DNA of 38,029 nt from a virus: positions 1 to 38,029 of IMG/VR virus record IMGVR_UViG_3300042338_001090; one strand, written 5' to 3'. This document shows, in pieces, positions 101 to 22,127 of the stretch. Position numbers and translations under genes: made by a program. A model generated the notes under the pieces. That model searched no databases, was not told where the DNA came from, and saw only the letters and a program-made list of their open reading frames with translations. Position 1 is the stretch's first letter, and the number at the start of each line of letters is the position of its first letter.

Positions 101-2428
101 TTGACACGTTCCGCTGGCTTGACAGTCATCTATGGAGAGAATGGGGCCGGCAAGTCAGGTTACTCACGAATTCTCAAGCATGCCTGCCGCGCCCGCGATC
201 AGCGCGAAGCTATCCTTCCTGACGCGAAGATGGATCCTGCAAAGGCTGGGAAGCCCTCGGCAAAGTTTGACGTGATCATCGATGGTGTCAACTCTGAACT
301 AGCGTGGACAGTTGACAGCACTCCCCCTGAGCCGTTATCCGAGATCGCCATTTTCGATACCCATTGCGCCAGGGCCTACATCGACAATCATGGCGACTTT
401 GCCTATCGTCCTTATGGGCTAGACATCCTGGAGGGCCTGGTAGGACTCTGCAACAAGCTGAGGGTCCTGGCCACGCAAGAGAAGGCAGCCAACGCTCCCA
501 CAAATACAGCTTACGGAGCCATTGCAACGCAGCAAACAGCGGTTGGACGAGCCTTGCTTGCCATACCTGGCGCAACCAAAGCCACTGATATTGAAACCCT
601 CGCAACGTTTTCTGAGGTTGAACTCGCACGAATAGAACTGCTTACGCACACCCTATCCGAGACGGATCCCAAGCAGAAGGCTCAGGCATTGAAGCAGCGG
701 GCGGGGCGATTGCAAGAGCTGAAGGGTCGCCTCGACCTTGCAATACCTCTGGTCGACAGCGCCAAGATCGCAGCCCTGCGGGAGCTGATTGACAGGTCGA
801 GAGCAGCCAAAGCAGCAGCCGATCTTGCAGCCACCGACTTCAAGGCAAAGGATGGGCAGTTGCCCGGAACAGGTGGCGAGGAATGGAAGGCTCTGTTCGA
901 GTCCGCCAGAGCTTTTGCAAGGACTTCGCACCCCGATCACCAAATGGGCAAGTTGCCCAATGGCGCATCCTGCCCACTGTGCCAAAACGTCTTAGGCAGT
1001 GAAGGCTCAACTCGGATGTCTCGCTTCGAAGCGTTCATCCAGCAAGATTCCGAAGCGCAGGCAAAGAAGGCTCGAGTCGATGCCGAAGCAGCCTATAGGA
1101 ATTTGCAGGCAGCAAATTTGAACGTGCTGATCGGAGCGGCCCTTGCCGAAGAGTTAAAGGAGATTGATGCGGCCCTTGCCGATCAATGCTCAGCGCTGCA
1201 AACCTGCCTGATCAACCGTCAGCGACAGACTATGGAGGCCTCCGCTGGAAAGCTTGCTTGGGAGCAGATTCAGCCTATCGCCGATGATCCTCGCGGCAAG
1301 CTCGAGGTACATGCTGCAAGGCTAATCGAGCATGCCAACGCGCTTGAGGCAACCGCTGATGAGAAGGCTAAGGCCGCCATGGTGCAGGAAAAGCTGGAGT
1401 TGGATGCACGTAAGCGCCTTACCGAAGTCAAGGCAGCAGTACTCGACACAATTACCAAACACGATCTTTGCGCTAAGCTACAGGCGTGCATCGACGCAAT
1501 GGATACGCGCGCAATATCTCGCAAATCCACCGAGCTTTCACGGACTATGGCCAGCCAAGAACTCGCTGACGCACTCAATACAGAGCTTCGTTGCCTCAAA
1601 GTCCATGAGCTGTGTGTCGGGATGAAGCCTGAGTCCCCGGGCGGCAAGACTCAATTCAAGCTGACGCTACAGCTTCCAGGTGGTGGCGCGCCATCAGCAG
1701 TCCTCAGCGAAGGCGAGCAACGCGCCATTGCCATCGCATCCTTCTTGGCAGAAATCAAACTAGGAAAGGGTAAGGGAGGCATAGTCTTGGACGACCCGGT
1801 CTCCTCTCTTGACCATCGCCGCCGCTGGGAGGTGGCTGAGCGCCTCGCGCAGGAATCCAAAGTCCGCCAGGTGATCATCTTCACTCACGACATCTATTTC
1901 CTGGCGATCTTGGAACAGAAGGCAGAGGCAGTTGGCGCATCACTAGCCAAGCATTACATCCGAAGGACTGCTAACGGCTTTGGCGTCCACTCCCAAAGCC
2001 TCCCGTTCGATGTAGAGGGAACCAAGGCGCGGGTGGGCCAATTGCGGCAAATGCAGGTTGAAGCTCAGCTAGCAAAGAAAGACGGAGATGATGACCGGCA
2101 TCGAATGCTGACGAATGCAGCCTACGGAAGGCTGCGATTGGCCTGGGAGCGTTGCGTCGAAGAGGTCTTGTTCAATGGCGTTGTCCAACGCTTTGGCGAG
2201 GGCGTCTCCACGCAAAAGCTGAAAGCCGTCGTAGTGACTGACGATGACTACAAACAGATCCATGCTGGCATGTCGAAGAGCTCGAAGTTTGAGCACGATG
2301 CGGCCAGCCCAGTCGGACGTCTTCCGCTACCGGATCCTGAAGAGCTCTCAGCAGACATCGAAAGCCTTGAAACTTTCCGCGTAGCGGTAGACAAACGAAA
2401 TAGGCAGGGAATCCCAACGCGGGCATGA
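101..2428 (+). CDS. PrrC/RloC-like AAA ATPase with zinc hook, N-terminally truncated
   Basis: This is an ABC/SMC-type ATPase of the AAA_13 kind. The P-loop GENGAGKS is at residues 12-19. Long helical, probably coiled-coil arms are interrupted by a Rad50-like CPLC hook at 291-294. The ABC signature LSEGEQRA is at 535-542, the Walker B/D-loop DDPVSSLD at 564-571 and the H-loop His at 596. The C-terminal domain carries R679-x3-E683 and H732, the order and first spacing of the Arg-Glu-His triad of PrrC/RloC anticodon nucleases; the nuclease role is inferred. The only start is TTG at 101, 11 residues before the P-loop. The frame is open back to base 23 but has no ATG, so the normal N-terminal strand and any extension are missing. 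It precedes the 300-aa gene by 21 bases and was probably a defence operon. It may be inactive. Confidence 0.75.
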   Translation: MTRSAGLTVIYGENGAGKSGYSRILKHACRARDQREAILPDAKMDPAKAGKPSAKFDVIIDGVNSELAWTVDSTPPEPLSEIAIFDTHCARAYIDNHGDFAYRPYGLDILEGLVGLCNKLRVLATQEKAANAPTNTAYGAIATQQTAVGRALLAIPGATKATDIETLATFSEVELARIELLTHTLSETDPKQKAQALKQRAGRLQELKGRLDLAIPLVDSAKIAALRELIDRSRAAKAAADLAATDFKAKDGQLPGTGGEEWKALFESARAFARTSHPDHQMGKLPNGASCPLCQNVLGSEGSTRMSRFEAFIQQDSEAQAKKARVDAEAAYRNLQAANLNVLIGAALAEELKEIDAALADQCSALQTCLINRQRQTMEASAGKLAWEQIQPIADDPRGKLEVHAARLIEHANALEATADEKAKAAMVQEKLELDARKRLTEVKAAVLDTITKHDLCAKLQACIDAMDTRAISRKSTELSRTMASQELADALNTELRCLKVHELCVGMKPESPGGKTQFKLTLQLPGGGAPSAVLSEGEQRAIAIASFLAEIKLGKGKGGIVLDDPVSSLDHRRRWEVAERLAQESKVRQVIIFTHDIYFLAILEQKAEAVGASLAKHYIRRTANGFGVHSQSLPFDVEGTKARVGQLRQMQVEAQLAKKDGDDDRHRMLTNAAYGRLRLAWERCVEEVLFNGVVQRFGEGVSTQKLKAVVVTDDDYKQIHAGMSKSSKFEHDAASPVGRLPLPDPEELSADIESLETFRVAVDKRNRQGIPTRA

Positions 2429-2449
2429 ACTCGTCAACCAGGAGGTACG

Positions 2450-3352
2450 ATGTATCTGGGCATATGCAACAACACAGGGCTCGTCTATGAGGGGTTGGGA
2501 GCCGCCGACATTCCATCGATTCCGACGCCCAGCGTCACCCAAGCTAAGCTGATCGAGGCCGACGCTGAATGGCAGGATCTGCCGCGAGGGTTGACGTTGG
2601 ATCCGCTGCGGTGGATCTTCCGCGAGGACTCTTTTGACCCAGTGACACGAACCCGGCGTGGCCGGCTCTACGAGCCTCAGTCAGGCCATGGACAGCCCAA
2701 CCAGCAGCGAGTCGGACCCCATCCTTACGAAGACCCTATGATGCGGCAGGTGGGCACAGGGGGGCGAGTCGCGAAGACCCTCTTTACCTTCACAGCGTGC
2801 CACCCACTCCTAGCTCTCCCTAATCAAGGCCAAGGTATGACGCTCGCCCTGGGAGATGCCCGAGCTGCATCCCCATGGCGCATCATTCAGACCGAGGCCT
2901 TAGCTAACGGATCTGTGATGGTGACGCTCAAGTCCCTATCTGCCTTCGCAATCATCCCTGCGGTTGACTATGGGCAAGTTGCGCAGGAGCATCGGCCAGC
3001 AGTGACGGATGCCATCGAACGAGTAATGAATTCCGCATTTCGCGAGGCTCCCATTTCGGTCGTGGACCATTGTCGGGCAGCGCTGACCGTCCTGCTATCG
3101 CGATGGCTGCTCCAGAACAGGCGAGAAGAGGAGGCTGCCCTCGCTCTCGACTTGGGTCCTCTGGCCAGGCGCATGGAGGCGTACGAAATGTTCTGCGTAG
3201 CAAACGCAGCTCATATCGTTGCAAGGCTACATGCGCGTGGCAAGCCTAATGAGCAGCAAGCGCGCGGGTTGCGGACTCCTGAAATCGGTGATGACGAGTT
3301 TGCGCTGGAATCGGTTGGCTTGGTGATTCGAGATCTTGGCTGGTCAGCATGA
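2450..3352 (+). CDS. Unknown 300-aa protein paired with the AAA ATPase
   Basis: I do not recognise a family with confidence. The ATG at 2450 has a strong ribosome binding site (AGGAGG, five bases upstream) and follows the ATPase stop by 21 bases, so the two genes form an operon. The N-terminal two thirds look like a mixed alpha/beta globular protein. The C-terminal 110 residues (about 190-300) are helical, with a stretch of the kind 'LARLHARGKPNEQQ' followed by 'ALESVGLVIRDLGW', which loosely resembles helical C-terminal domains of abortive-infection proteins. There is no signal peptide or membrane segment. Position suggests a partner or regulator of the nuclease-like ATPase. This is inference from context. 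Confidence 0.7.
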   Translation: MYLGICNNTGLVYEGLGAADIPSIPTPSVTQAKLIEADAEWQDLPRGLTLDPLRWIFREDSFDPVTRTRRGRLYEPQSGHGQPNQQRVGPHPYEDPMMRQVGTGGRVAKTLFTFTACHPLLALPNQGQGMTLALGDARAASPWRIIQTEALANGSVMVTLKSLSAFAIIPAVDYGQVAQEHRPAVTDAIERVMNSAFREAPISVVDHCRAALTVLLSRWLLQNRREEEAALALDLGPLARRMEAYEMFCVANAAHIVARLHARGKPNEQQARGLRTPEIGDDEFALESVGLVIRDLGWSA

Positions 3353-6067: not shown

Positions 6068-9037
6068 ATGTACCCATATCCAAAAGGTTCATGTATGCAA
6101 TACCCTATTCCCCCTTGCTTTGATAATCCGGAAGAAGCTCCTGAGCGGCTGACCGAAATGTTCGTCGGCGTTGCGCAAGACCGTCGCATTCAACTGGGCC
6201 AGCGACCTGCCGAACGGGCGGTGTTCCGCAAGCTGCATGGTGTAGCCAGTGCCGAATGGGTGCTACAACCAAACATTCCCGAGGCTCTGAAGGTCGGCAT
6301 CTTCACGCATGAGCGCTTGCAAGCATGGGTGCGTTTTTCGAGTGACACAACGCCCACATCGCCGGACTTGAAGTCCACGCTTGGGGTTGGCATCAAACTT
6401 TTTGGCGTCCCGGGTGTCAAAGCACTGGGTGATGATGGCGATACGGCCGACTTCATCATGCAGAACTTTCCGGTCTTCTTTGTGGACAACGCCCAAGAGA
6501 TGACCGAGTTTACCTATGCCGGTGTGGTGCAAAAAGACTACCCCAGCTACCTGAAAAAGCACCCCAAAACCGCTGCGATTCTGGATCGCATGGCCAAGGT
6601 CGAAGGCAGTGTGCTCACCACAACCTATTGGGCCATCCTGCCTTTCATGGCAGGCGAGAAGCAATACGTCAAATACCGTCTCGATCCAGTTACACCACCC
6701 GAGAACGTGCCCAATGATCAGGCCGACTACCTGGCGGTGGATATGTGCAATCGCTTGTCCCATGACGGCTATCAGTTCAAGTTCATGGTTCAGTTGCGAA
6801 CCAATCCCGAAACCATGCCGTTGGATCAGGCCACAGTGGAATGGCCCGAGACAGAAAGTCCGTTTGTGCATGTGGCCACACTCACACTGCCCAGGCAAGA
6901 CATCACTTTGCGTGGCCAGTCGGAATACGGACAAGGCTTGAGCTTCAACATCTGGCGTGTGCCGCCAGAGCAAGCGCCAGTGGGCTCGATTGCCGTGGCT
7001 CGCAAAATGGTCTACCGCGAAGGCGCACGCTTGAGGCACGAAGCCAATGGCCAGCCCTTGCAAGACCCCACAGAACCGAGGCCAGCTGCATCGGCATGTC
7101 CTTTCCATCAAGTACAGGAGGCCACGGCCGAACCCGCCATTCAAATGTATGGACCCGTCGACACCTGCATTGTGAAAGCGGCCATCTACCCGTCTATTGG
7201 GGTGGCGCGTGTAGGCAACAGTCCTGATGAATGGTTTCTGGGGCCAGAGGTGCCAGACCCGGCCCCCTTTCCGCCAGGCTCTTACCGGGACGCACATCAT
7301 CGCCTCAAACGGCAGGCCGCCAGGTTCCGCATTTACGGACTCAATGCCAAGGGCGAGATCGTGCGAGAGCTGACTGCAGACAACGCTGACATCGAGTGGG
7401 ATGTTCAACTGGCCAACCAAAAGTCAGCTTGGTACGGGTTTCAGCTGGCGTTGGACATTCCGGAGGCGGCTTCTGCACCACCGACCACTTTGCGCAATCC
7501 GGGTGTCCCAGACAGAAACATGCTGAGCATCACCCCCAACCCACACAAGGTGAAAGGCAAGAACGCCAAAGCCAAGCGCTTTGACGATGGCCAGTTCATG
7601 GGTAAGCCGGTGTACCTGGGTGAAATTCACACAGACGAAAACGGGCGTCTGATTGTTTTGGGCGGCCACGGCCATTCGTCTTCTTACAACAACAGCAAAG
7701 CCATCACGTTTGGCAACAACGAAGGCTGGCATGACGATGTGTCCGACGGCCCGGTGACAGCAAGCGTGAAATACCAAGGCTTGCAACTGATGGTTGATCC
7801 TGCTTGGGTGGTGGTGGCGCCACCCAACTACGGTCCTGAGTTGAAAACTGTGCGCACGATGTGGGACTTGATGCGTGATGTAGCCATCACCAACGGGATG
7901 CTGCCCATGCCCACACGTCCAAGCTTTACTTTGGACATTTACCCGCTGTTCCAGCGGCTTCATGGTTTGCAGTGGGTCAACAGTGGCTTTGCTGCCGGCT
8001 TTGGCTGGAGGGGTGCAAATGATTTGACCAGCCCGGAAGTGGTAGCCAGACTGTCCAGCGCGTCCCCAGCCTTCAGGGAGCTACGCAAAACCATTGCAAA
8101 TCAGTTCCGCAACGACAACGTGGACTCGTGGTCTCCCAAGCCTTGGCCATGGCTGTATGGCGACGCCATGTCGGTACCCGCGGCCCATACTCCCCTGCAG
8201 AACACGTCATTGACTGCAACGCAGCTCGCTTTCCTGCAGCAATGGGCGAATGGTGATTTCATTGAAGACTACGATCCTGAGCAAGTGACGCCCAAGTCCA
8301 TTGAAGACGTGCCACTTGCAGCGCAAGGCGACACACTGACACGCGCAGCTCTGGACTTCTGTTTGGCCGATGCGTTTCACCCGGGGTGCGAGATGACATG
8401 GCCTGTACGCATCAAAACCATGTACATGGGACCGTTCAGGTTTGCGCATGCACCCAAGGGCTGGGTTGCCCCGTCTATTGGCGAGGTTTTGAGCAGTGAC
8501 TGGATCACGATTCCCAACGGACCTTTCAGCGGTCAGCAGGCGGGCGGCATCACCCGATGGATGGCCGTGCCGTGGCAAACAGACACCGCCAGCTGCCGCT
8601 CGGGCTACGACAAAGCGTATGACCCTTATGTGCCCAGCTTCTGGCCCGCACGTGTGCCCAACCAGGTTCTGACCAAGCAAAACTACGACATCGTGATGGA
8701 CACCAGCAAGTCGCTCGGAGAGCGCATGATGGCATTCGCCAATCGCGCGGCTTGGACCGCTCCGCTGGGTGACAGTTCGTACACGGATCAGATCAACAAC
8801 ATGATTCATCACTTTGACCACATGGGTGTGGTTGAAGTGCGCGAAGGCCCAGCAGACCGAGCAAATTTCCCTGCTGTGATTCAGGTAGAGGACGAACACC
8901 GTCCTATCTTGAGTGATGGACATGCACCGCGCAAACATCATGACGATGCAAAGCTGGGCGCAGCTGGTGAAACTCGCCCTGACTCTGTTGATCTGATGAC
9001 GATTGAGAAAGTGCGTCGCTTCCCTCGTGGTTTGTAA
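6068..9037 (+). CDS. Catalase-like domain fused to a LodA/GoxA-type CTQ amino-acid oxidase
   Basis: Two enzymes are joined. Residues ~20-340 resemble heme catalase-related proteins: a candidate distal His in FRKLHGVASAEW (H57), VRFSSD, GVGIKLFG, DFIMQNFPVFFV and YVKYRLDP. Residues ~362-989 are a LodA-family quinoprotein, opening with IYPSIGVARVGNS. C774 (HPGCEMTW) and W836 (MAVPWQTD) are 62 residues apart and are my candidates for the cysteine tryptophylquinone pair. LodA enzymes oxidise the amine of an amino acid (lysine epsilon or glycine), releasing ammonia and H2O2; the substrate cannot be read here. The catalase part could destroy the peroxide at source. The first ATG (6068) lacks a ribosome binding site; ATG 6095 with AAAAGG upstream is a better start (980 aa). 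The stop abuts the lodB-like start. Confidence 0.85.
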   Translation: MYPYPKGSCMQYPIPPCFDNPEEAPERLTEMFVGVAQDRRIQLGQRPAERAVFRKLHGVASAEWVLQPNIPEALKVGIFTHERLQAWVRFSSDTTPTSPDLKSTLGVGIKLFGVPGVKALGDDGDTADFIMQNFPVFFVDNAQEMTEFTYAGVVQKDYPSYLKKHPKTAAILDRMAKVEGSVLTTTYWAILPFMAGEKQYVKYRLDPVTPPENVPNDQADYLAVDMCNRLSHDGYQFKFMVQLRTNPETMPLDQATVEWPETESPFVHVATLTLPRQDITLRGQSEYGQGLSFNIWRVPPEQAPVGSIAVARKMVYREGARLRHEANGQPLQDPTEPRPAASACPFHQVQEATAEPAIQMYGPVDTCIVKAAIYPSIGVARVGNSPDEWFLGPEVPDPAPFPPGSYRDAHHRLKRQAARFRIYGLNAKGEIVRELTADNADIEWDVQLANQKSAWYGFQLALDIPEAASAPPTTLRNPGVPDRNMLSITPNPHKVKGKNAKAKRFDDGQFMGKPVYLGEIHTDENGRLIVLGGHGHSSSYNNSKAITFGNNEGWHDDVSDGPVTASVKYQGLQLMVDPAWVVVAPPNYGPELKTVRTMWDLMRDVAITNGMLPMPTRPSFTLDIYPLFQRLHGLQWVNSGFAAGFGWRGANDLTSPEVVARLSSASPAFRELRKTIANQFRNDNVDSWSPKPWPWLYGDAMSVPAAHTPLQNTSLTATQLAFLQQWANGDFIEDYDPEQVTPKSIEDVPLAAQGDTLTRAALDFCLADAFHPGCEMTWPVRIKTMYMGPFRFAHAPKGWVAPSIGEVLSSDWITIPNGPFSGQQAGGITRWMAVPWQTDTASCRSGYDKAYDPYVPSFWPARVPNQVLTKQNYDIVMDTSKSLGERMMAFANRAAWTAPLGDSSYTDQINNMIHHFDHMGVVEVREGPADRANFPAVIQVEDEHRPILSDGHAPRKHHDDAKLGAAGETRPDSVDLMTIEKVRRFPRGL

Positions 9038-10159
9038 GTGCCTGTGCGGGACCAGCTCTTTGTCGATGTTTTGGTGGTGGGGGCTGGCCCCGCAGGCAGT
9101 ACGGTGGCGCTTAATCTGGCAACTTTTCACAAGGTTTTGATCGTCACGCAGCAGAGTGTCACGTCACAAGCAGTTGGGGAGTCATTGCCGGCTGCTGCAT
9201 CACGTTTACTTAAAGACATGGGGCTGTGGTCTTCGTTTCTTGAACAAGACCATCAACCCCATCGCTTGAGCAAGTCACTATGGGGCAGTGCTGAACCTTA
9301 CTTCAATGACTCGGTTCGCAACCTGGACGGCGATGGCTGGCATCTGGACCGCGCTCGATTTGATGAGTGGCTGCTGCAGCAAGCTCATCGACGAGGCGCT
9401 GGAATTCTGAGGTGTTCGGGATTGAGTTTTGGAAATCTGGACCCCACCGATCAATCATGGCTTGTGGAAACCGAAGTCGATGGACAGCGCATTCACATCA
9501 AAGCCAATTGGTTGGTTGATGCCACTGGCCGAAAATCATTCTTCGCCAAACAAATGGGGTTGATACCGCAAGCCAAAGACAAGCTTGCCTGTGGCTGGAT
9601 GATTGGCCGTCACCTCTCCAACGCAGAGCAGGAAAGTGAAATCCATGCCGAAAGAGATGGCTGGTGGTATACGTCGGTTCTTCCCAATCAACAAAGGTTG
9701 CTGGCCTTCTATACCGATGCAGATCAGCCTTCTGCCAAAGATGCACACAAGCCCAACGCGTTGCTAAGGCGTGCACAGCAGCTGCCAGACCTGGCGCAAA
9801 CAATATTGACAACAGACTTTTCTGACATAGCCGCCAAACACGGCTTTTGCTCAGCCAACAGCGCCACGCTGCCTCAATACGCCGGACACCGCTGGCTGGC
9901 CACCGGAGACGCGGCCATGTGTTTTGATCCGCTCTCATCCCAAGGCATATTCAATGCGCTGTACACAGGTCTGGCTGCATCAACATCGATTCATGATGCG
10001 CTCAGCACGGATCATTTTCAGCCTTGTATCGATGAATACAGCAACGCACTGGCAAACATTTGGCAGACGTATTTGAACAACCGGGCCAGCTGGTATCAAG
10101 ACCAAGCACGCTGGCCAAAATCTGAGTTTTGGCTTCGGAGAACTTCAGCAATTACCTAG
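9038..10159 (+). CDS. LodB-like FAD-dependent maturase for the CTQ oxidase
   Basis: The 373-aa flavoprotein has an N-terminal dinucleotide-binding motif VVGAGPAGSTVALNLA, a GESLPAAASRLL segment typical of halogenase/LodB-type flavoproteins, VDATGRKS in the middle, and the second FAD motif ATGDAAMCFDPLSSQGI. LodB proteins are needed to make the cysteine tryptophylquinone in LodA. The GTG start at 9038 follows the LodA stop with no gap, so translation is coupled. The length is that of a full LodB, including the usual Trp/Arg-rich end. Its stop (10157-10159) overlaps by eight bases the end of the prophage spanin gene on the other strand. Confidence 0.85.
   Translation: MPVRDQLFVDVLVVGAGPAGSTVALNLATFHKVLIVTQQSVTSQAVGESLPAAASRLLKDMGLWSSFLEQDHQPHRLSKSLWGSAEPYFNDSVRNLDGDGWHLDRARFDEWLLQQAHRRGAGILRCSGLSFGNLDPTDQSWLVETEVDGQRIHIKANWLVDATGRKSFFAKQMGLIPQAKDKLACGWMIGRHLSNAEQESEIHAERDGWWYTSVLPNQQRLLAFYTDADQPSAKDAHKPNALLRRAQQLPDLAQTILTTDFSDIAAKHGFCSANSATLPQYAGHRWLATGDAAMCFDPLSSQGIFNALYTGLAASTSIHDALSTDHFQPCIDEYSNALANIWQTYLNNRASWYQDQARWPKSEFWLRRTSAIT
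10114..10133. repeat. Inverted repeat in the 3' end of the lodB-like gene
   Basis: GCCAAAA and TTTTGGC form a perfect 7-bp stem around a six-base loop, close to where the two convergent transcription units meet. Neither strand continues into a T-run, so it is a weak candidate for a terminator and may only reflect the coding sequence. Confidence 0.25.
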
Positions 10160-11591: not shown

Positions 11592-13013
11592 CTATGCGGC
11601 AACGACCGCAATCGGAAACGCTTTTCGGAGCTGCAGGACAGGAACCACGGTCTGCATGTCTCCACCAGACTCCACAAACGCAAGACAGATGACGTCAATC
11701 ACGTTCTGTCGTGACGAACGAATAGCATCAGCCTCAATCCGGGTCAGGATCAGCCCTTGCGTCTGGTAGTACAGCGCTGCGGCCATGACCGCCAGGTTGT
11801 GCGAAAACGAGTTGTCGCAGGCAGCGCGCCAGTAACCGTCTTCCAGAAACAAACAGGCCCCTTTGCAAAGTTGCACCACGGGACAACGCGGGCATTCGAT
11901 TCGGGTGCTGAAGTGGTACGCCGTATTCAGCGCTATGTCGTCAAATTGTTCAACGTGGCCGATCCTGTGACGGGTCGAGGCGCTCATGTTCTGGCAGGTC
12001 GTCACATTGCCTTTCATGTCTACGGCAATCGAGTCATCACGGTCCATGCCGCACTTTTGGCCCAAAGAGTTCAGCGGCCTGGACTGTGCCTGCGCTCGCA
12101 TGAATTCGTCGACTTTGTCTCGCATCGTACCCACCGACATGCCAGCACCTGTCACCAGTTCCCAGAACATCTGGTGGCGGTATCGATCAAGATCAGCACC
12201 TTCCAGCGTCAGCGAGAGACCTCCTTGGTCATAGGGCAGCATCACTTCCTCGGTGGCCAGCACAATGGCCTGCACTGGCAGATCGAGCTTTTCAGCGAAA
12301 TACTGCCGAACCGCCTTGAGGGATTGGTTGTGCCGGTGCAAAACCGTGTTGAAGCTCATCCGATCAAGCGGCATGCGCCTGGATACCCAGCGCTTGATCT
12401 GGACAAGCTTTTCAGGATCAGCCAATGGATCCGGGCCACGGTATGACTGGGCAGGTCCGTCATGGGACAAGCCAATCCCGATATCCAGCGCTTCCACCCA
12501 AGCCAGTTTTTCGTCATCGAATAGCGATCCGTTCGTCACGATCGACAACTGAGCATTGGGATAGCGACGTTTGACCTCCTCACCCAGGGGCTTGAGCAAT
12601 TTCCAGTAAACAAAGGGTTCTCCACCCCAAAACTCGATCTTGACGCCAGCACCTCGGCCATCCTCTCCTCCAGCAAACCACCCCTCGAGTTGCTGCATGA
12701 AAGGCTGGACATCGTCCGGGTGCCCGTCAAGGTCATGAGGCTGGTGTGCCTGTGAGCAGTATTGGCAGGCGTAATTGCATTTGAGCCCCAGCTGCAGCTT
12801 GAGGTGGCGAATGGCCCTTGATTTTCCGGCCGGATTGGAGGGGTGATGCAAATGCCAAAAAGGCTGCCACTGCATGCCCTCCTGGCGAGCAAATGCCTGT
12901 GGCAATGGCAAAGGCTCCCCACTGTCTTTCCAGACCAGACTGGAGTCTTCTGGGTTGTAGACGGCCTGTCGCTCAAACTCGTTTTTGCCATTGAGGGTGA
13001 GTGTGAATTTCAT
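11592..13013 (-). CDS. Radical SAM/SPASM enzyme in the phage fibre cassette
   Basis: The 473-aa protein has the radical SAM cluster motif CX3CX2C (C79, C83, C86 in KCNYACQYC), the GGEPF motif of the anSME/SPASM class, and a C-terminal SPASM domain. The SPASM Cys series is KCGMDRDD, then TTC, then CPRCPVVQLCKGAC and AAC, able to hold extra 4Fe-4S clusters. Relatives install thioether bonds, other cross-links or oxidations in peptides and proteins. ATG 13013 is chosen because it overlaps the stop of the 69-aa gene (ATGA) with GAGG upstream; the frame is open further, to 13055. It is the last gene before the holin and follows three oxygenase-like genes. Its substrate is unknown; the Cys/Asn-rich end of the fibre is my candidate. 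Confidence 0.88.
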   Translation of the reverse strand: MKFTLTLNGKNEFERQAVYNPEDSSLVWKDSGEPLPLPQAFARQEGMQWQPFWHLHHPSNPAGKSRAIRHLKLQLGLKCNYACQYCSQAHQPHDLDGHPDDVQPFMQQLEGWFAGGEDGRGAGVKIEFWGGEPFVYWKLLKPLGEEVKRRYPNAQLSIVTNGSLFDDEKLAWVEALDIGIGLSHDGPAQSYRGPDPLADPEKLVQIKRWVSRRMPLDRMSFNTVLHRHNQSLKAVRQYFAEKLDLPVQAIVLATEEVMLPYDQGGLSLTLEGADLDRYRHQMFWELVTGAGMSVGTMRDKVDEFMRAQAQSRPLNSLGQKCGMDRDDSIAVDMKGNVTTCQNMSASTRHRIGHVEQFDDIALNTAYHFSTRIECPRCPVVQLCKGACLFLEDGYWRAACDNSFSHNLAVMAAALYYQTQGLILTRIEADAIRSSRQNVIDVICLAFVESGGDMQTVVPVLQLRKAFPIAVVAA

Positions 13014-13219
13014 GACAATGATTCCTCGAATGCGATGGGGTATGCCTCTCGGCAAACCTGTGCCGGATCAGCACCCGGCATCGTTTGAATGTTGAAGACA
13101 TGACGGCCAGAAGCTTTGCCGTCGGGATTGGTGACCAACACAGTCATGCGCAGGTTGCTGTCGTCCACACGGACCACATCCACCTCGAAACCTGGACGGG
13201 TATGTGAATTCAAAGACAC
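13010..13219 (-). CDS. Small protein of the fibre-modification cassette (69 aa)
   Basis: I do not recognise this family. The product is acidic, with strand-like stretches (EVDVVRVDDSNLRMTVLVT, HVFNIQTMPG) and a single Cys (AQVCREAY). It starts at GTG 13219 under a perfect AGGAGG six bases upstream, inside the end of the preceding oxygenase gene. Its stop overlaps the radical SAM start (ATGA). Such tight coupling suggests similar amounts of both proteins. It may be a substrate-binding adaptor or chaperone for the radical SAM enzyme; with one Cys it is an unlikely thioether substrate. This is inference. Confidence 0.7.
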   Translation of the reverse strand: MSLNSHTRPGFEVDVVRVDDSNLRMTVLVTNPDGKASGRHVFNIQTMPGADPAQVCREAYPIAFEESLS

Positions 13220-13893
13220 GACGCCCCTCCTCTGAGCTCGGTGTACAGATCGCTGTAGTTGTGAGAGGCGACCCGAAGGGTCACCACCAGAAGGGTTCGC
13301 TCACCCTGGGCATTGAAGGGGTTGGTTTCATGCCAGATGCGCGATGGATGCAGTACCACCAGACCGGGAAAGGTTTCGATGTAGCGAACCTTCTCCCAAA
13401 ATGGAAACCCCGCCATCGGACGGGGGTCCTGCAAGATAAGTTCACCGTCACCGACGGTCCAGCTGCGTTGGTCCGGTGGACTTCGGCCTTGCCCGCAGTC
13501 CAGGTACAGACACAGGACATGGTCACAGGTGTGGTGGTAGTGCGGCTGAGCCCGCATACCTGGCTGGTAATGCACGGGGATGCAACGAGCTTCGATTTTT
13601 AGATCCTGTGCATTGCGCACCCCGTGTGCTTCGAGCAGGTAGTTGCGGTAAGTACTCTCCACCCAGAGCTTCCATGGATGCCAAACTGCCGGTGCATGAG
13701 CCTCATGATGGGCATGAAACAGATTGAGCTGGACCCTCAGCCGGACATCCACATCAGGCAAGCCGTGCACGGGTGGATGGGTCTGATGATCATGAAATCT
13801 TTCGACCGTGTAGCGCCGAAGTTCATCCATTTCAGATGGAGTCCAAGGCGCCGTGTCCTTGAGCACTGGCGTTGGCCAGAGGTATTCAATCAT
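13210..13893 (-). CDS. 2OG-Fe(II) oxygenase-like protein, third of the cassette
   Basis: The 227-aa protein resembles the phage-associated 2-oxoglutarate/Fe(II) oxygenase group. The His-rich strand AQPHYHHTCDHVLCLYLD (residues ~116-132) would hold the first metal ligands, DPRP (156-159) follows, then VVLHPSRIWHETNPF with H188, and R199 in ERTLLVV as candidate 2OG-binding Arg. The first ligand pair is less regular than the canonical HxD. ATG 13893 overlaps the stop of the upstream oxygenase gene (ATGA) and has AGAGGTGG upstream; the frame is open to 13941. Reactions in this fold include hydroxylation of amino-acid side chains. The substrate is unknown. Confidence 0.75.
   Translation of the reverse strand: MIEYLWPTPVLKDTAPWTPSEMDELRRYTVERFHDHQTHPPVHGLPDVDVRLRVQLNLFHAHHEAHAPAVWHPWKLWVESTYRNYLLEAHGVRNAQDLKIEARCIPVHYQPGMRAQPHYHHTCDHVLCLYLDCGQGRSPPDQRSWTVGDGELILQDPRPMAGFPFWEKVRYIETFPGLVVLHPSRIWHETNPFNAQGERTLLVVTLRVASHNYSDLYTELRGGASCL
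13226..13231 (-). promoter_or_regulatory. Shine-Dalgarno site deciding the GTG start of the 69-aa gene
   Basis: AGGAGG on the minus strand lies six bases before GTG 13219 and inside the last codons of the upstream oxygenase gene. It supports this non-ATG start over any other. Confidence 0.75.
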
Positions 13894-14468
13894 GGTGCCA
13901 CCTCTGAACCAAACGCCACCGCGATACGCAAGGCGTTGCAATAACGGGAGATCGGGCGGGCAGCATGGCGCATGCAGCCATTGATCTGCACCATCCGATT
14001 GGGTTTGACCATGACTGCCGCCTGAATTTCACCCAGATCGTCCAACATCACCAAATCCCCTCCCCAATCCGCACTCCACTCGGCTACCGGATACCAGATC
14101 ACGGATCTTGCCGTGTCCTGAAACTCAGTTGGGAAGTCCCTGTGGAGCGAAGCCTCATCTCCGAACGCTTGCACATTGACCCACAGGCGCGTGATCTCTG
14201 CGTTGGGAAAGAACTGCTCTTTGACCTGAAGGGCCACTCGGACCAGTGGTCCCCCCTGGGCCACAAACGCATCAAAAGTATGTTCTGGCTGCCATGCACC
14301 TGCGTCATAGTGGTGGTTGTGCTTTCCTGGCAGCACAAAATTTCGGTGCCAAAACACCCCAGGGGCCTTGGCATGCGCTTTCCAGCCAAACACAAGGTTC
14401 TGGCTCAACAGCCACTGGCGGCATTCAGCGGTCAACTCGGGCTCAATCAAACCGTCAACGATTTGCAT
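13890..14468 (-). CDS. 2OG-Fe(II) oxygenase, second of the cassette (canonical HxD...H...R)
   Basis: The 192-aa protein has the clearest active site of the three: H109-R-D111 (ASLHRDFP), the WGGDLVML strand, H168 in GCMRHAARP and R181 in ALRIAVAF, thirteen residues after H168. These fit the iron ligands and the 2OG-binding Arg of the SM-20/prolyl-hydroxylase-like fold. It should hydroxylate or oxidise a substrate side chain with O2 and 2-oxoglutarate. ATG 14468 with GGAGG upstream is chosen over the open frame to 14519. The start overlaps the upstream oxygenase by fourteen bases and the stop overlaps the next start (ATGA). Confidence 0.85.
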   Translation of the reverse strand: MQIVDGLIEPELTAECRQWLLSQNLVFGWKAHAKAPGVFWHRNFVLPGKHNHHYDAGAWQPEHTFDAFVAQGGPLVRVALQVKEQFFPNAEITRLWVNVQAFGDEASLHRDFPTEFQDTARSVIWYPVAEWSADWGGDLVMLDDLGEIQAAVMVKPNRMVQINGCMRHAARPISRYCNALRIAVAFGSEVAP

Positions 14469-15054
14469 GGGCTTGTCCCTCCAATGCCTGAACCCGGAAC
14501 TCAAAATGGACTTCCACACTCGGCCGGGTACCGTTGTAGGGGTGGGAATGGTGCGCCAGGTAGCTCGGGAAAATCACCAGCAGGCCGGGGTACGGATGGA
14601 TGATTTCCGAGCGCCAGCCTTCCCAGGGCAATTTGCGGCTGCCGTAAGCACCGCTGGGATTGACCAGCACAAAAGCGCCGGAGTAGTCCTGGCGAGAAGG
14701 ATCTGGCCGAGCATTTCCGTCAATCCAATACACCGCCGAGAGATCGGTGTCTTCGGCATGCAGCGGAATGAACTGACCAGGTTGGGTGATGACCTCTCGG
14801 GCGGATTGCCACACGGGTTCACACTGGTAGGCGTGCCCAATGACTTCACGAACCTGGTTTACCAGGGGTCTGAAAACGTCACAGCAGCTTTCATGATCGA
14901 TCAGGGACTGACGGCTTTTGCGTGCCCAGGGCTGCCCATCTCGATTGAGCCGCTGATGTAAATCCATTGCCCTTTTGAGCATCTGATCACGCAAGCCATC
15001 CTCAAAACTCAGTTGTCCTTGGTAGACCCGAGCAGAAAACAGTTCGCGAATCAT
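14455..15054 (-). CDS. 2OG-Fe(II) oxygenase-like protein, first of the cassette
   Basis: The 199-aa protein looks like the TIGR02466-type 2OG-Fe(II) oxygenases often found in phages. H99-A-E101 in IPLHAEDTDLSAVYWID is the candidate HxD/E pair, FVLVNP the following strand, HPYPGLLVIFPSYLAHHSH with H168/H169 the distal ligand and R177 the likely 2OG-binding Arg. Residue identities are my reading without alignment. The ATG overlaps the stop of the 268-aa structural gene (ATGA) with AGGTGG upstream, so it is translated along with the fibre genes. Confidence 0.78.
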   Translation of the reverse strand: MIRELFSARVYQGQLSFEDGLRDQMLKRAMDLHQRLNRDGQPWARKSRQSLIDHESCCDVFRPLVNQVREVIGHAYQCEPVWQSAREVITQPGQFIPLHAEDTDLSAVYWIDGNARPDPSRQDYSGAFVLVNPSGAYGSRKLPWEGWRSEIIHPYPGLLVIFPSYLAHHSHPYNGTRPSVEVHFEFRVQALEGQAHANR

Positions 15055-15857
15055 GAAAGGACCACCTGAGCATCGGCGCAGCCGGGGTAGAACTTGAAGC
15101 CCGCTTTCAATCGGACGGTGTCGCCAGCTTGAAGCCCCAAGGTCATGACGGTGGCTGTGGTCATCCCGCCCTGCGTTCGGCGTCGGCTGACGGGCAGATA
15201 ACCATTGACCGACTCAAAGTGAATCTCTGCATCACGGTTGCTGGGATTGCCCAGGCCGTCGAGCATCTGCACAGTGAATTCGGCTGGATCCCCCGCTATG
15301 ACATTTGCGGGGGCAATCACCCGCAAGTCTGGGAACTCCATTTCCCTTACCTGAGCAGATGACTGGTAATCGGTGTGCTCCACATCCATGGAAGCCACAC
15401 CTTCAACCAGACATCCTCCAAGCGTGGGATGAAGGTTCACCGTCACGAAGCATTCATCAAAGCTGCTGTCCGCAAAGGGCACGTTAAATCCGGTCAGGAA
15501 GTTCCCGTTCCAGACATGCCCCGAGACTTCTGGCGCTGTGAAACGCGTAGACAGGGTGTAGACATACAAGGGCAACGGGTCGATGAGCCGTTTTTCTGCC
15601 CAGCGGTAACCGGTCATAAAGGACTGTCGGTCGGACCACCCACGGTTGTTTCTCAGCTCACGATAGGCAAACACCTGCTCGGCAACCACCTGGTAAGTCA
15701 CCCCCTCCACAGAGAAGTCAGAAGGCTGATCACTATCTGGACGGTGTCGCAAGCCAAAGCGCATGAGTACCTGCTCAGCCGCTTGGTCCACTTTGAGATG
15801 AATGGCGTAATCCAGCGCAGTCGAGAGCTTGCCCGCGCGCACAAGAAAGACTTTCAT
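15051..15857 (-). CDS. Phage structural protein with C-terminal Ig-like domain
   Basis: The 268-aa protein has no family I can name. The first ~170 residues are a mixed domain beginning MKVFLVRAGKLS. From about residue 175 a beta-rich Ig-like (bacterial Ig/invasin-type) domain follows: DLRVIAPANVIAGDPAEFTV, then TTATVMTLGLQAGDTVRLKA, ending FYPGCADAQVVLS. Ig-like domains are common in tail and capsid surface proteins. The gene begins nine bases after the tail-fibre stop, with its AAGGA overlapping that stop, and its own stop overlaps the first oxygenase. It may be a fibre-tip partner or fibre chaperone. Confidence 0.65.
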   Translation of the reverse strand: MKVFLVRAGKLSTALDYAIHLKVDQAAEQVLMRFGLRHRPDSDQPSDFSVEGVTYQVVAEQVFAYRELRNNRGWSDRQSFMTGYRWAEKRLIDPLPLYVYTLSTRFTAPEVSGHVWNGNFLTGFNVPFADSSFDECFVTVNLHPTLGGCLVEGVASMDVEHTDYQSSAQVREMEFPDLRVIAPANVIAGDPAEFTVQMLDGLGNPSNRDAEIHFESVNGYLPVSRRRTQGGMTTATVMTLGLQAGDTVRLKAGFKFYPGCADAQVVLS

Positions 15858-15866
15858 GATGATCCT

Positions 15867-16877
15867 TCAGCAGCAACCGCAGCAGGCACAGTTGCAATTG
15901 CAGTTTGTTCGGCAATTGAAGGCGGTGTTGCCGCAGTTGCAGTTGGTGTAGCTGCCACAGTTGCAGTTGCAATTGCAGGCTCGGTACCAGCGGTGGTACT
16001 CGCCACCACCAATCTCGTCTTGGGCCAGGTAGTAACCGTCGTAGTTGTAGCCTGTGCTGGGCACGGCGTTATAGGCGTAGGTCGTTCCCCCCGCACCGTC
16101 GTATTGGGCCGAGTTGGCGCAGTAGTTGAACCCCAGGCCCCAGGTCCACCAGCTGGTATTGGAGGGTTTCCAGTACGTATTGCCTGCGCAGTTGCCGGTC
16201 GGCAAGATGCCATTGCAGTTAGCAGCCAGATCGTCGTAATACTGGTTGCTGCGCCCCATCTCGCCAATGTCCTGTCCATCGTTCATGCGATAGCCAGTGT
16301 TGCGAGCGTTGTCCGCCGCACCAGACTGAGACGAGTAAATCACTGCGCCAGTACCCATGTACAGATGGCCTGTCATCGTGTCACCGGCCTTGGCCAATCG
16401 ACTGGACAAATCGATCGGTACGGTGGCATTACCAGAGGCATCCGGTGCGTTGCCATTGACTGAGCGCACAAAGGCCGTGGAGTCATAGCCATCGAGCTTG
16501 TCAGCGTCCGCTGCCTTGGCCGTGATGCCCAGGTATGCCGCGTTGTGGTTGTGGCCCAGCGCTGCATATGCGGCATCGTGGTTGTGCCCACTCAGTGCAA
16601 AGCCGGTGGAGTCGATGCCATCCAGCAGATCCGCATTGGCCACTTTGCCCACTGTGGCCGAGAGGTCGATGACCATCTTCCACGTGACGGGACTGACCAC
16701 GGTGAGGATGTAGAGCTTTTGCTCATCAGTCCTGAAACACGGCATACCCTGCTGCAGATTCACAGTCGGAAACGCCGTTCCGCTGGAGAGCGAGAGCGCC
16801 GTCTTGTCGTTGTTCAGGATCTGCGACAGCGAGTCCGAGAGCGTCGTGCTGGACGGGATTTCGGTGTAGTTTTGCAT
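15867..16877 (-). CDS. Tail fibre with a Cys/Asn-rich C-terminal tail
   Basis: The 336-aa protein begins with a short head, then shows phage tail-fibre repeats: ADLLDGIDSTGFALSGHNH, AYAALGHNHNAAYLG and ADKLDGYDSTAF, with HxH metal-site motifs as in T4 and lambda side-fibre proteins, then RLAKAGDTMTGHLYMG. Residues ~215-298 are rich in Tyr, Trp, Asn and Gly and probably form the tip domain. The last 36 residues (301-336) contain 14 Cys and 10 Asn in CNCNCNCG, NCNCG and NCNCNCACCGCC blocks. So many Cys at the end of an extracellular fibre suggest metal binding, disulfides or enzyme-made cross-links. The modification-like genes directly downstream favour the last. ATG 16877 has AAAGGG upstream. 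Confidence 0.85.
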   Translation of the reverse strand: MQNYTEIPSSTTLSDSLSQILNNDKTALSLSSGTAFPTVNLQQGMPCFRTDEQKLYILTVVSPVTWKMVIDLSATVGKVANADLLDGIDSTGFALSGHNHDAAYAALGHNHNAAYLGITAKAADADKLDGYDSTAFVRSVNGNAPDASGNATVPIDLSSRLAKAGDTMTGHLYMGTGAVIYSSQSGAADNARNTGYRMNDGQDIGEMGRSNQYYDDLAANCNGILPTGNCAGNTYWKPSNTSWWTWGLGFNYCANSAQYDGAGGTTYAYNAVPSTGYNYDGYYLAQDEIGGGEYHRWYRACNCNCNCGSYTNCNCGNTAFNCRTNCNCNCACCGCC

Positions 16878-18617: not shown

Positions 18618-21600
18618 TCAATACAGCTTGAGGACCGTGTATCCGGCAGTGGGTTGCAAAGGACTGCTTGCGCTTTGCACATCGCCGCCCATCTTTCCGA
18701 CAAAGAGCCTGCGTTCAGCGGCCGTCTGACATACACCAACGCAAATCCGGTCGCTGACGCTCACGGGGTATGGCACGACGATTCGGTTGAACAGGTGGTC
18801 TTCCAGAAAGAAGCTGCCTGCCGCCGCATCGAAGCCCACAAGCAGGCTCACCCCTGCACCAGATGCTGTCCAGATGACCGAGGTGGTGATCTGATTCGGG
18901 ATGAACCAAAAGCTCACATGGAACACCCCGGGGATGCTCACACCCCAGGAAACCCGGGTCGTGTCCTTGATGAGTACCCCACTGCCGTACCGCCCGTCGC
19001 CATAGCTGACGCCCACGGCCTCCCCACTGGCAGGACTGCCGTACCCTGCCAGCGCACCATTGAGGCGCCAGCCGTAGAGCTCTCCGGCCTGCAATGCATC
19101 TTCGCGCGCCATCTGAAACCTCGCTTCGATGCTTTTGAGCGCGCCGTCATAGTTCCATTGCCGTTTGGCAGCATTGCTGCTCCAGACATAGTTCGCTGTC
19201 GACCAGGTTTCTCGATCATCCAGTGTGGCCCCGATGCTGGCCAACAGGGTGTTTTGCGCCCGGTAGCTGGTGGGCAGATTCACCTCGAACAGGTACTCGG
19301 ACTGCGCAACGCCACTGTCCATGCGCAGCACATCCAGGCTGTTGACCGACTCGACCGATGCGAAATGCTTCACCCCTGGAAACCGGGTGGCCTGTGCATC
19401 GATGGTGACCAGCAGGTTGGCGTTCTGGGGCTGGGCCACCACCGTCGAGACGAAGGTGGCCTCGTCCGAGTAGATGCCTGGCGAGGCGATTGCCTTGATC
19501 CAGAAATTACGCTCACCGTCAAAGCCTGAAGGCAAAGTGAAGCTGCTGGACTTGACCTCGGCAATGAAGATCGAAGTGTCCCACGCCGTGCCTTCTCGCA
19601 GCTCATAGGCCACCACCTCCGGCTCAGGATTGGGCAGCCAACGAAACTCCAGCCGGTTGGCCGACTGGACCACATCAAACTGCCGCACTGCGGCTGGTGC
19701 CAGCAGGAGCAACTCGAAGGTGGCGACATGCTGGCTGTACTTGCCAGAGGTGTCAAAGGCCCGGATGAAGTAGTTGTACCGACCTGATTCACTTTGGTCA
19801 TGGACGAGCTGGGTACCAGCGGTCTGCCCAACCAGAGTTCCCGCATCCCAGCCCGCGCCCACCCTCACCTCGTACCCTGCCAGATCGGCATCCGTGTTGG
19901 CGCTCCAACTCAGCAGCAGATCGGTCGTGCGGCGCAGCACCACAAAGTCCTGCACGTCATCGGGCGGCTGCAGTTTGCCAAGGATGGTCTGGCTCAATGA
20001 GGCCGAGCCCCCAAGCTTGCCGGACACCCCCACAGCCCGAACCGTGAAAACATAATCCCCGGCCTCGGCGTTTCGAATCTCCAGATAAGTGCTCGAAATC
20101 CGGGGCAAGGTGACGGTGTTGCCGCCATTGACCCGATAGCTCACCTGATACTCCAGGCCGCCGAAGACCTGCTCCCATCCCAACTGAATGAGCACCAGCG
20201 CCTGATCCTTGACCCGGTACAGGCTCTCGGTGATCAACAGGCCCGTAGGCGCCACAGGTGTGGTGGAGAGCACCGTGATATCACGAGGCTGCAGTGCCAG
20301 CCCACGCTCGATGGCGTCGTACTTGCTCGGATTGTGAGCCAGTGCCGTGACTTCATGGATGCCTGGCTCGCTCTCGGCGACCTGCACCGCCCTGAACAGT
20401 TGCGTCTCCACTTGACTGGAGGCCAGCACCCAGATGGCACCCACCTGAGGTGCTAAAGAGAATGCGCTTGTCACACCGACCGTTCGGCCAGACAGGGATC
20501 CGACTTGGCGCTCCTCCACCACTCCCGTGGGCAGCAGCACAGAGATGCGCCATGAACCGGCGGGCAAATCCTGATCCAGCGTGACGCTTATCGTGGTTGC
20601 CCCCGTGATGCGCCCACCCAGGCGTAGGCCACCCCGACTGCTGTCTGCCACCTTGATGACATCGCCGGGGCGCACAACAGCGCCTTCCAGTCCCGTGCGG
20701 AATGTGATGATTTCCGATTCGGACTGCTCGGAATACAGCAGCCAATTGCCCACCCGGTTGGCCTGGCCCCGGGAAGTGCAGCCCATGGCCACCACATCGG
20801 CCTGAACCACGCCATAGCGGGCAATGCCTGCCATGTCTTCGACGTATTCCACCTTCTGGCGGTAGAAATCACCCGGATCCACCCAGCTGACCAAAGCAAC
20901 CGTGTGCCGCGCCTTGGCGGATGACCCCTGGTAGGCGAACTCACCATCGATGACATTGGCTGCGGTGAACTGGTAGACCGGATCCTGGGGCGCATCCTGA
21001 GTGACAGTGATTGCCCCGCCCGACCAGTAAGCCATGCCCCTGAAGATCGAGGCCATATCCTGCACCACCTTGTAGGCCTGCTCGCGGCTTTGCAGATACA
21101 GGTTGCAGGTAAATCGCGGCTCATAGCCACCCAGACCATCGGGCACGAGTTCGTCACAGTAACGGGCCACCCGGTACAGCGCCCATTTGTCGACCTGGGA
21201 CTCCGGTATGAAACTACCCAGCCCGTAGCGGGTATTGGTTACCAGGTCATAAAAGCACCAGGCCGGGTTATCTGTCCAAGCCACCTTGAAAGTACCGTCC
21301 CAGATCCCGCTGTACGCACGGGTCTCGGGTGAGTAGTTCGAGGGGATGCGAACGCGAAGGAGCTTGAGGTCATAGCTGCGCCGTGGAATCGAAGTGAACT
21401 GCGAGGCATCCACCCGCAAGGCCATCAGGGCGCTGTTGGGATAGCGCAGCTTGCTTTCGATCACCTCGGTGTACGAATCTAGAAGCGTTTTGTTCTGCAG
21501 GCTGGTCTGTGTCGAGTCGGCCGTGATGCGGCGCAGGCGCACATCCCAAGGACCAGCGCCAATGAGTGGGACGTAGTAGCTGCGCTGGTAGCGCGAAGTG

Positions 21601-22127
21601 GTTTTGCCAGAGACCGTGTCGGTAACCACCTGCACATACCCGGCTCCCCGCGCCTGCACGTCGATCGCGTAGCTGACCGAAGTGCCGTTCAGGTCACCGT
21701 TGGTGGTGTCTTGCAGCGTGAGCGACGGGATACTGACCTTGATGCGCACGGCATCCACGTCAGGATCAGTGATGGAGCGCACCACCGGCTGATTGGCCTT
21801 GCACTCCACCCCAACAGCCACTTCGTTTTCCACAGCGGAGAAGCCGGGGATGTAGCTTTGCTGCTGGGTGCCAGGGCGGGTTTCGAGCGTTACCCCCGTG
21901 AAGTTGTAGCTGCCGTCCGGATTCTGGATAGGGGTGTCGTCCAGGTAGACGGATTGCAGGTTTGCGGCCAAGCCCTCAATCTCACCCTCGCAGACGAGGT
22001 CAACCACCCTGGCATAGGCCTTGGAGCGCAGGCTGTCGGGCGCTTCCTGCGCCACACGTGCGCTGCCGCCCCCACCCTTTCCACCGCCACCGGCACCAAT
22101 GATCAGAGAAGTGCTCTGTGTGCTCAT
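18618..22127 (-). CDS. J: Tail tip attachment / host specificity protein, lambda J family
   Basis: The 1169-aa protein starts with a Gly-rich leader (GAGGGGKGGGGSARVAQEAPDSLRS), followed by the conserved J core (YARVVDLVCEGEIEGL, VYLDDTPI.NPDGSYNF). Three fibronectin-III-like domains lie near residues 625-715, 718-800 and 805-905. After about 1035 there is a beta-rich domain (SGVLIKDTTRVSWGVSIPGVFHVSFWFIP) of lectin-like (concanavalin/LamG-like) type. J forms the tail tip and contacts the receptor, so the C-terminal domain is the likely recognition part. The stop of gene I overlaps the J start. Confidence 0.93.
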   Translation of the reverse strand: MSTQSTSLIIGAGGGGKGGGGSARVAQEAPDSLRSKAYARVVDLVCEGEIEGLAANLQSVYLDDTPIQNPDGSYNFTGVTLETRPGTQQQSYIPGFSAVENEVAVGVECKANQPVVRSITDPDVDAVRIKVSIPSLTLQDTTNGDLNGTSVSYAIDVQARGAGYVQVVTDTVSGKTTSRYQRSYYVPLIGAGPWDVRLRRITADSTQTSLQNKTLLDSYTEVIESKLRYPNSALMALRVDASQFTSIPRRSYDLKLLRVRIPSNYSPETRAYSGIWDGTFKVAWTDNPAWCFYDLVTNTRYGLGSFIPESQVDKWALYRVARYCDELVPDGLGGYEPRFTCNLYLQSREQAYKVVQDMASIFRGMAYWSGGAITVTQDAPQDPVYQFTAANVIDGEFAYQGSSAKARHTVALVSWVDPGDFYRQKVEYVEDMAGIARYGVVQADVVAMGCTSRGQANRVGNWLLYSEQSESEIITFRTGLEGAVVRPGDVIKVADSSRGGLRLGGRITGATTISVTLDQDLPAGSWRISVLLPTGVVEERQVGSLSGRTVGVTSAFSLAPQVGAIWVLASSQVETQLFRAVQVAESEPGIHEVTALAHNPSKYDAIERGLALQPRDITVLSTTPVAPTGLLITESLYRVKDQALVLIQLGWEQVFGGLEYQVSYRVNGGNTVTLPRISSTYLEIRNAEAGDYVFTVRAVGVSGKLGGSASLSQTILGKLQPPDDVQDFVVLRRTTDLLLSWSANTDADLAGYEVRVGAGWDAGTLVGQTAGTQLVHDQSESGRYNYFIRAFDTSGKYSQHVATFELLLLAPAAVRQFDVVQSANRLEFRWLPNPEPEVVAYELREGTAWDTSIFIAEVKSSSFTLPSGFDGERNFWIKAIASPGIYSDEATFVSTVVAQPQNANLLVTIDAQATRFPGVKHFASVESVNSLDVLRMDSGVAQSEYLFEVNLPTSYRAQNTLLASIGATLDDRETWSTANYVWSSNAAKRQWNYDGALKSIEARFQMAREDALQAGELYGWRLNGALAGYGSPASGEAVGVSYGDGRYGSGVLIKDTTRVSWGVSIPGVFHVSFWFIPNQITTSVIWTASGAGVSLLVGFDAAAGSFFLEDHLFNRIVVPYPVSVSDRICVGVCQTAAERRLFVGKMGGDVQSASSPLQPTAGYTVLKLY

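Follow-up and report, generated by a model that had tools for sequence, protein, structure and literature searches.

The tail-fiber protein encoded in the DNA analyzed here (the window, all 38,029 nucleotides of IMG/VR virus record IMGVR_UViG_3300042338_001090) ends in a Cys-alternating (XC)n array, and this array, a radical SAM (rSAM)/SPASM gene, and genes encoding tailoring oxygenases are inherited together as a single gene set, in which rSAM type follows the C-domain of the fiber. The array probably serves as the substrate in a RiPP-like maturation of the fiber tip that the phage itself encodes, with Cys thioethers as the most likely outcome.

Translation of the minus-strand fiber ORF gave a 336-aa protein whose end is CNCNCNCGSYTNCNCGNTAFNCRTNCNCNCACCGCC. 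The original prediction, that the final 36 residues hold 14 Cys and 10 Asn with CCGCC last, was exact. The same array was present in independent metagenome contigs, hence it is neither chance nor an assembly slip. The gene lies shortly after one encoding a lambda-J-like tail protein (18618-22127), and the tail-fiber label rests on this position, weak PHROG tail-fiber matches (E 0.004), tblastn matches of the weakly T4-type N-terminal half to T4 gp34-like fibers, and the annotation of the homolog in Achromobacter phage JWF, which carries a T4 gp36 hinge-connector note. An AlphaFold model of the C-domain was unusable (pLDDT 30). Six minus-strand genes follow the fiber gene with overlapping or closely spaced starts and stops (Table 1), and an endolysin gene is found two genes beyond the rSAM. 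The family 8 oxygenase scored just below the cut-off against PF13640 (26.1 bits) and below it against NF052475 (E 8.6e-13), and neither the 268-aa nor the 69-aa protein matched a family in Pfam, NCBIfam, or PHROG.

Table 1. Fiber gene, array, and downstream genes in the window
Feature	Position	Strand	Details
Tail-fiber protein, 336 aa	15867..16877	-	N-domain ~1-172, C-domain ~181-300, array 300-336
Cys-alternating (XC)n array	15867..15980	-	Final 37 fiber codons plus stop; CCGCC end
268-aa protein	15051..15857	-	Cluster 0; commonly the first gene past the fiber; 72 relatives at this place
2OG-Fe(II) oxygenase, family 1	14455..15054	-	PF13759 27.7 bits; phrog_81 E 1.5e-14; associated with CC tails
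2OG-Fe(II) oxygenase, family 8	13890..14468	-	ATG 14468; associated with CCG/CCD tails
2OG-Fe(II) oxygenase, family 2	13210..13893	-	ATG 13893; PF13759 26.7 bits (just below cut-off); phrog_81 E 3.8e-12
69-aa protein, ahead of rSAM	13010..13219	-	Relatives in closest rSAM group
rSAM/SPASM enzyme P0002, 473 aa	11592..13013	-	PF04055 and TIGR04085 above cut-off; phrog_1802 E 5.6e-53

Elsewhere in the window, a plus-strand region (6068-10159) encodes a 989-aa protein with LodA_N/LodA_C domains (L-lysine epsilon-oxidase, CTQ quinoprotein family), the N-terminal part of which resembles a gene annotated as catalase, followed by a LodB-like FAD protein. This region is convergent to the tail operon, was absent from every relative fetched, and is perhaps host DNA or a cargo gene. 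At 101-3352 (+), an AAA_13/SMC-like ATPase precedes a 300-aa ORF that matched nothing in PHROG or Pfam, and the two may form a defense-type gene pair.

To follow the array across viruses, we searched IMG/VR with the fiber and the rSAM, which returned loci L001-L106. All 56 distinct complete fibers with the same N-domain ended in or contained an (XC)n array; a homolog with the same gene order and no Cys-rich end, the case named in advance as speaking against the array, was not found among them. An rSAM gene was present for every one of the 51 fibers with enough downstream sequence (at least 4.5 kb, or the rSAM seen). Independently of homology, IMG/VR was scanned with a DNA pattern for NCNC[ND]CNC. 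Among the matches listed, 86 of 117 loci had the motif no more than 25 residues from where a closed ORF ends; 70 of these 86 carried an rSAM, and the remaining 16 all had less than 2.7 kb of downstream sequence. The matched control NSNS[ND]SNS gave 14 C-terminal matches and an rSAM at 0 of 120 loci. The listed array-bearing proteins, compared without their arrays, fell into 9 groups that lacked detectable mutual similarity, and the listed rSAMs near arrays into 28 clusters below 60% identity. Matches listed from the cellular-genome collection were mostly low-complexity chance, and the three fiber-like ones (L352, L410, and L443) had an rSAM in the same genome, for L352 on the same contig. The NSNS control and the cellular-genome scan rule out a chance motif.

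Several rSAM matches were set aside, namely that of Campylobacter phage CP220, a core domain match only with no array nearby, and those of human-gut phages, which had no nearby array. Xylophilus phage Lumi, a JWF relative, encodes a giant tail protein without an array and was absent from the phage-collection rSAM matches listed. No rSAM relative was found in the Paraburkholderia, Pseudacidovorax, and Bordetella genomes searched. At three loci (L102, L162, and L186), more than one array-ended small protein was encoded beside a single rSAM, and at two others (L026, 5818-6576; L220) fatty-acid-desaturase-like genes lay between the array-ended protein and the rSAM.

The rSAM travels with the end of the fiber. 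Across 50 distinct fiber/rSAM pairs, rSAM identity was correlated with that of the fiber C-domain (r = 0.83, partial 0.81), whereas its partial correlation with the N-domain, C-domain held constant, was 0.003. The N-domain instead tracked the upstream gene (r = 0.93), and in pairs with near-identical N-domains and differing C-domains the rSAMs differed as well (mean identity 42%). The oxygenases, which we assigned to families by HMM, followed the last residues of the array, an end-motif code that was noticed in the data and whose counts take no account of shared ancestry: family 8 occurred in 8 of 8 CCG tails, its sole other carrier (L130) ending ACCD, and family 1 in 16 of 16 tails ending CC vs. 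8 of 48 others. STDC tails carried family 7, and four loci with ends CGDA, CGDG, CRD, or CND encoded a second rSAM between the fiber and the main rSAM. Both CC motifs are present in CCGCC, the tail of the window fiber, and families 8, 2, and 1 are encoded in the window. CCG tails occurred with five rSAM clusters.

The original prediction also held that the repeat could expand or shrink by slippage, such that block number may differ between strains. Block number does differ between lineages, from 4 to 27 XC units per array, but it is the same among close relatives, so nothing points to rapid slippage. Within the initial 27 codons of the array region, each of seven close relatives (L001, L002, L017, and L030 with the same tail; L003, L004, and L033 with a different end) differed from the window by 4 to 6 synonymous and 0 nonsynonymous changes. 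The more distant L005, L009, and L015 showed 10 to 14 synonymous and 3 nonsynonymous changes, none of the latter at Cys or at the Asn of an NC block. Because close relatives differ only synonymously, we rejected slippage as the driver of the array, and it is a doubtful source of strain-to-strain differences. The accompanying expectation that Cys spacing stays was right in essence, Cys being constant at every second position while X was N (457), D (60), A (49), K (40), or, rarely, another residue. That the array is a low-complexity slippage product without function has next to no probability; NCNC-encoding DNA in cellular genomes is of this chance kind for most of the matches listed, but the phage arrays are C-terminal, in frame, and tied to one enzyme, and the codon pattern together with the linkage refutes this reading.

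Two variants of the repeat were observed. The fibers of L020 and L021, loci that also carry a second rSAM gene, end in NYNCMSYCSYCSYCSYCTYCNCNCDCGDA, where a YC triad repeat (Cys at every third residue) adjoins an NC array. Near weaker rSAM matches, L115, L158, L217, L133, and L180 encode small proteins that combine (QTCQGC)n-type repeats with an NCNC/DC end, in tandem pairs at the first three loci; these may represent a related system with Cys at every third residue.

The array forms the actual end of the protein in most relatives. Arrays that are not terminal usually lie directly before a self-processing module, either Hint, which passed the Pfam cut-off in JWF and L207 but not in L085 and L352, or Peptidase_S74 (L196, L025, and L028), the profile of the latter starting at the first residues past the array. 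Hint and S74 modules self-cleave, and cleavage by the Hint and endosialidase-type Peptidase_S74 chaperone modules that directly follow the array in some relatives would release it as the mature C-terminus. Such modules are absent from the window fiber, where the array is the encoded end. Counter to this reading, L119 and L126 have about 175 residues without an assigned domain after the array. The array is quite likely the mature C-terminus. Loci L024 (4848-6611), L025, and L028 encode fibers with mostly KC arrays ahead of a Peptidase_S74 domain, of 25 and 27 units in L024 and L028, respectively, and in these three loci two Trp-halogenase-cluster genes and oxygenase-like genes lie between fiber and rSAM.

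The proposed modifier of the array is P0002. Its PF04055 match (30.3 bits, cut-off 29.5) includes the CxxxCxxC motif, of which C79, C83, and C86 were invariant in 34 divergent members, and its TIGR04085 match (33.5 bits, cut-off 27) includes the SPASM Cys pattern for two auxiliary Fe-S clusters, with seven Cys (C321, C340, C374, C377, C383, C387, and C399) invariant in the same 34. Foldseek with the structure model (pLDDT 91.7) placed CteB, the SCIFF/ranthipeptide enzyme, at the top, then anSME, ChlB, TigE, and SuiB; sequence identity to CteB was 14 to 18%, and anSME, TigE, and epimerase structures matched too. By profile alignment of the sequences, P0002 has seven rather than eight SPASM Cys and lacks one of the two early auxiliary-I Cys of anSME, as does CteB, in which auxiliary cluster I has an open coordination site that is bound by a substrate Cys (PMC6231123). 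This shared missing ligand makes Cys-binding thioether chemistry the leading guess. No curated maturase model reached its cut-off, the best being rSAM_nif11 (61.9 of 518.7 bits), with PapB at 57.7 of 340.

The gene set resembles the ranthipeptide and sactipeptide systems CteB-CteA, AlbA-SboA, and PapB in its rSAM/SPASM enzyme with seven SPASM Cys and a probable open auxiliary-I site, and in a Cys-rich substrate that adjoins the rSAM gene. Unlike these systems, the candidate substrate is a dyad (XC)n array at the end of a virion structural protein of ~90-600 aa. A short leader-core precursor is lacking, the candidate substrate here being the C-terminus of a 336-aa fiber, hence the set falls outside RiPPs in the strict sense; nor was a RiPP recognition domain identified in the system, which counts against the preferred reading. 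His-Xaa-Ser systems (HxsA/HxsB/HxsC) likewise pair a short-period repeat protein with rSAM maturases. Their repeat is a different one, and the HxsB and HxsC models scored well below cut-off against the rSAM (44.9 of 370 and 35.8 of 268 bits).

Metal clusters, a disulfide ladder, and Cys thioethers had been put forward as alternatives for the array. Because every array for which downstream sequence sufficed was accompanied by an rSAM/SPASM gene of a peptide-modifying type, genomic context favors covalent modification, thioethers most, and the metal and disulfide options less. In the T4 gp37 long-tail-fiber tip, HxH motifs bind iron, and the array is alike in placing a metal-type side chain at every second residue of a trimeric fiber tip, with Cys in place of His. 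Three parallel (XC)n strands of a fiber trimer with Cys inwards could bind a column of metal ions or clusters, the rSAM acting elsewhere or only priming the tip. Alternating Cys at a fiber tip suits this geometry, array length varies as a repeat would, and X accommodates K, D, A, and N alike. However, we found no homology to the gp37 tip, the only match being a weak one between residues 112-164 and a proximal fiber subunit (E 0.054), the T4 tip does not share the obligatory rSAM and oxygenases, and a metal needle leaves unexplained that obligatory rSAM, its co-evolution with the C-domain, and the match of end motif to oxygenase. We regard it as quite unlikely. An interchain disulfide knot that locks the trimer, with the rSAM and oxygenases modifying another part of the fiber, appears more doubtful still. 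Cys knots at collagen ends lock trimers by disulfides, CC and CCG ends, with their vicinal Cys, look like covalent locks of a trimer, and the virion would sit in an oxidizing medium, but KC arrays of 25 to 27 units are excessive for a lock and the pairing of enzyme with end motif suggests that the end is itself the substrate.

Other rSAM outcomes on the same substrate, either epimerization to alternating L/D residues forming a beta-helix or conversion of Cys to formylglycine, are unlikely. Polytheonamide forms a beta-helix of alternating L/D residues and anSME oxidizes Cys to formylglycine, a dyad repeat suits chemistry at every second residue, and both anSME and the epimerase YydG/EpeE were matched by the rSAM structure. 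EpeE was a weaker match, however, and the clusters of anSME are fully ligated, whereas the array-linked rSAM family lacks one ligand, like CteB.

We therefore retain thioether maturation as the working model. The fiber would be made first, and its C-domain would then present the array to the rSAM, which would use the putative open site on auxiliary cluster I to bind a Cys of the array and would build Cys thioether links along the (XC)n strand. The 2OG-Fe(II) oxygenases would then act on the end motif (CCG, CC), giving the fiber a stiff, covalently stapled tip at its mature C-terminus. That the array is the rSAM substrate is very likely, while a thioether product has roughly an even chance. Because X is variable (N, D, K, A), the array offers no fixed acceptor residue, which weighs against the model. 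From the position at the fiber end alone, a role in host contact or tip stability may or may not hold, with the chances about balanced. More broadly, we lean slightly toward the view that an unnamed, widespread class of phages builds multiply cross-linked, hydroxylated, natural-product-like fiber tips using radical SAM, oxygenase, and halogenase-like genes of its own, the tip perhaps being halogenated in some relatives, with the end sequence acting as a code for the tailoring enzymes and Hint/S74 self-cleavage exposing the tip in some lineages.

The type of chemistry, an rSAM/SPASM enzyme acting on a Cys-rich substrate, is already known. New to RiPP-type rSAM modification, it appears, are a virion structural protein as the candidate substrate and a dyad array with matching oxygenases. 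Searches of the open-licence literature for radical SAM with tail fiber, RiPP, ranthipeptide phage, or JWF returned no such description, and we know of no phage that modifies its fiber tips by radical chemistry. The isolated Achromobacter phages JWF and 2-1 open the system to direct test, and the many natural variants of a simple (XC)n substrate would be of use to enzymology. If correct, the model would assign a function to phage radical SAM genes (phrog_1802) and to the 2OG-Fe(II) oxygenases beside phage fiber genes, as well as to the Trp-halogenase-like genes of some relatives. It would represent a new kind of virion protein maturation, a phage-built cross-linked and hydroxylated tip, and add a post-translational layer to host recognition or tip stability.
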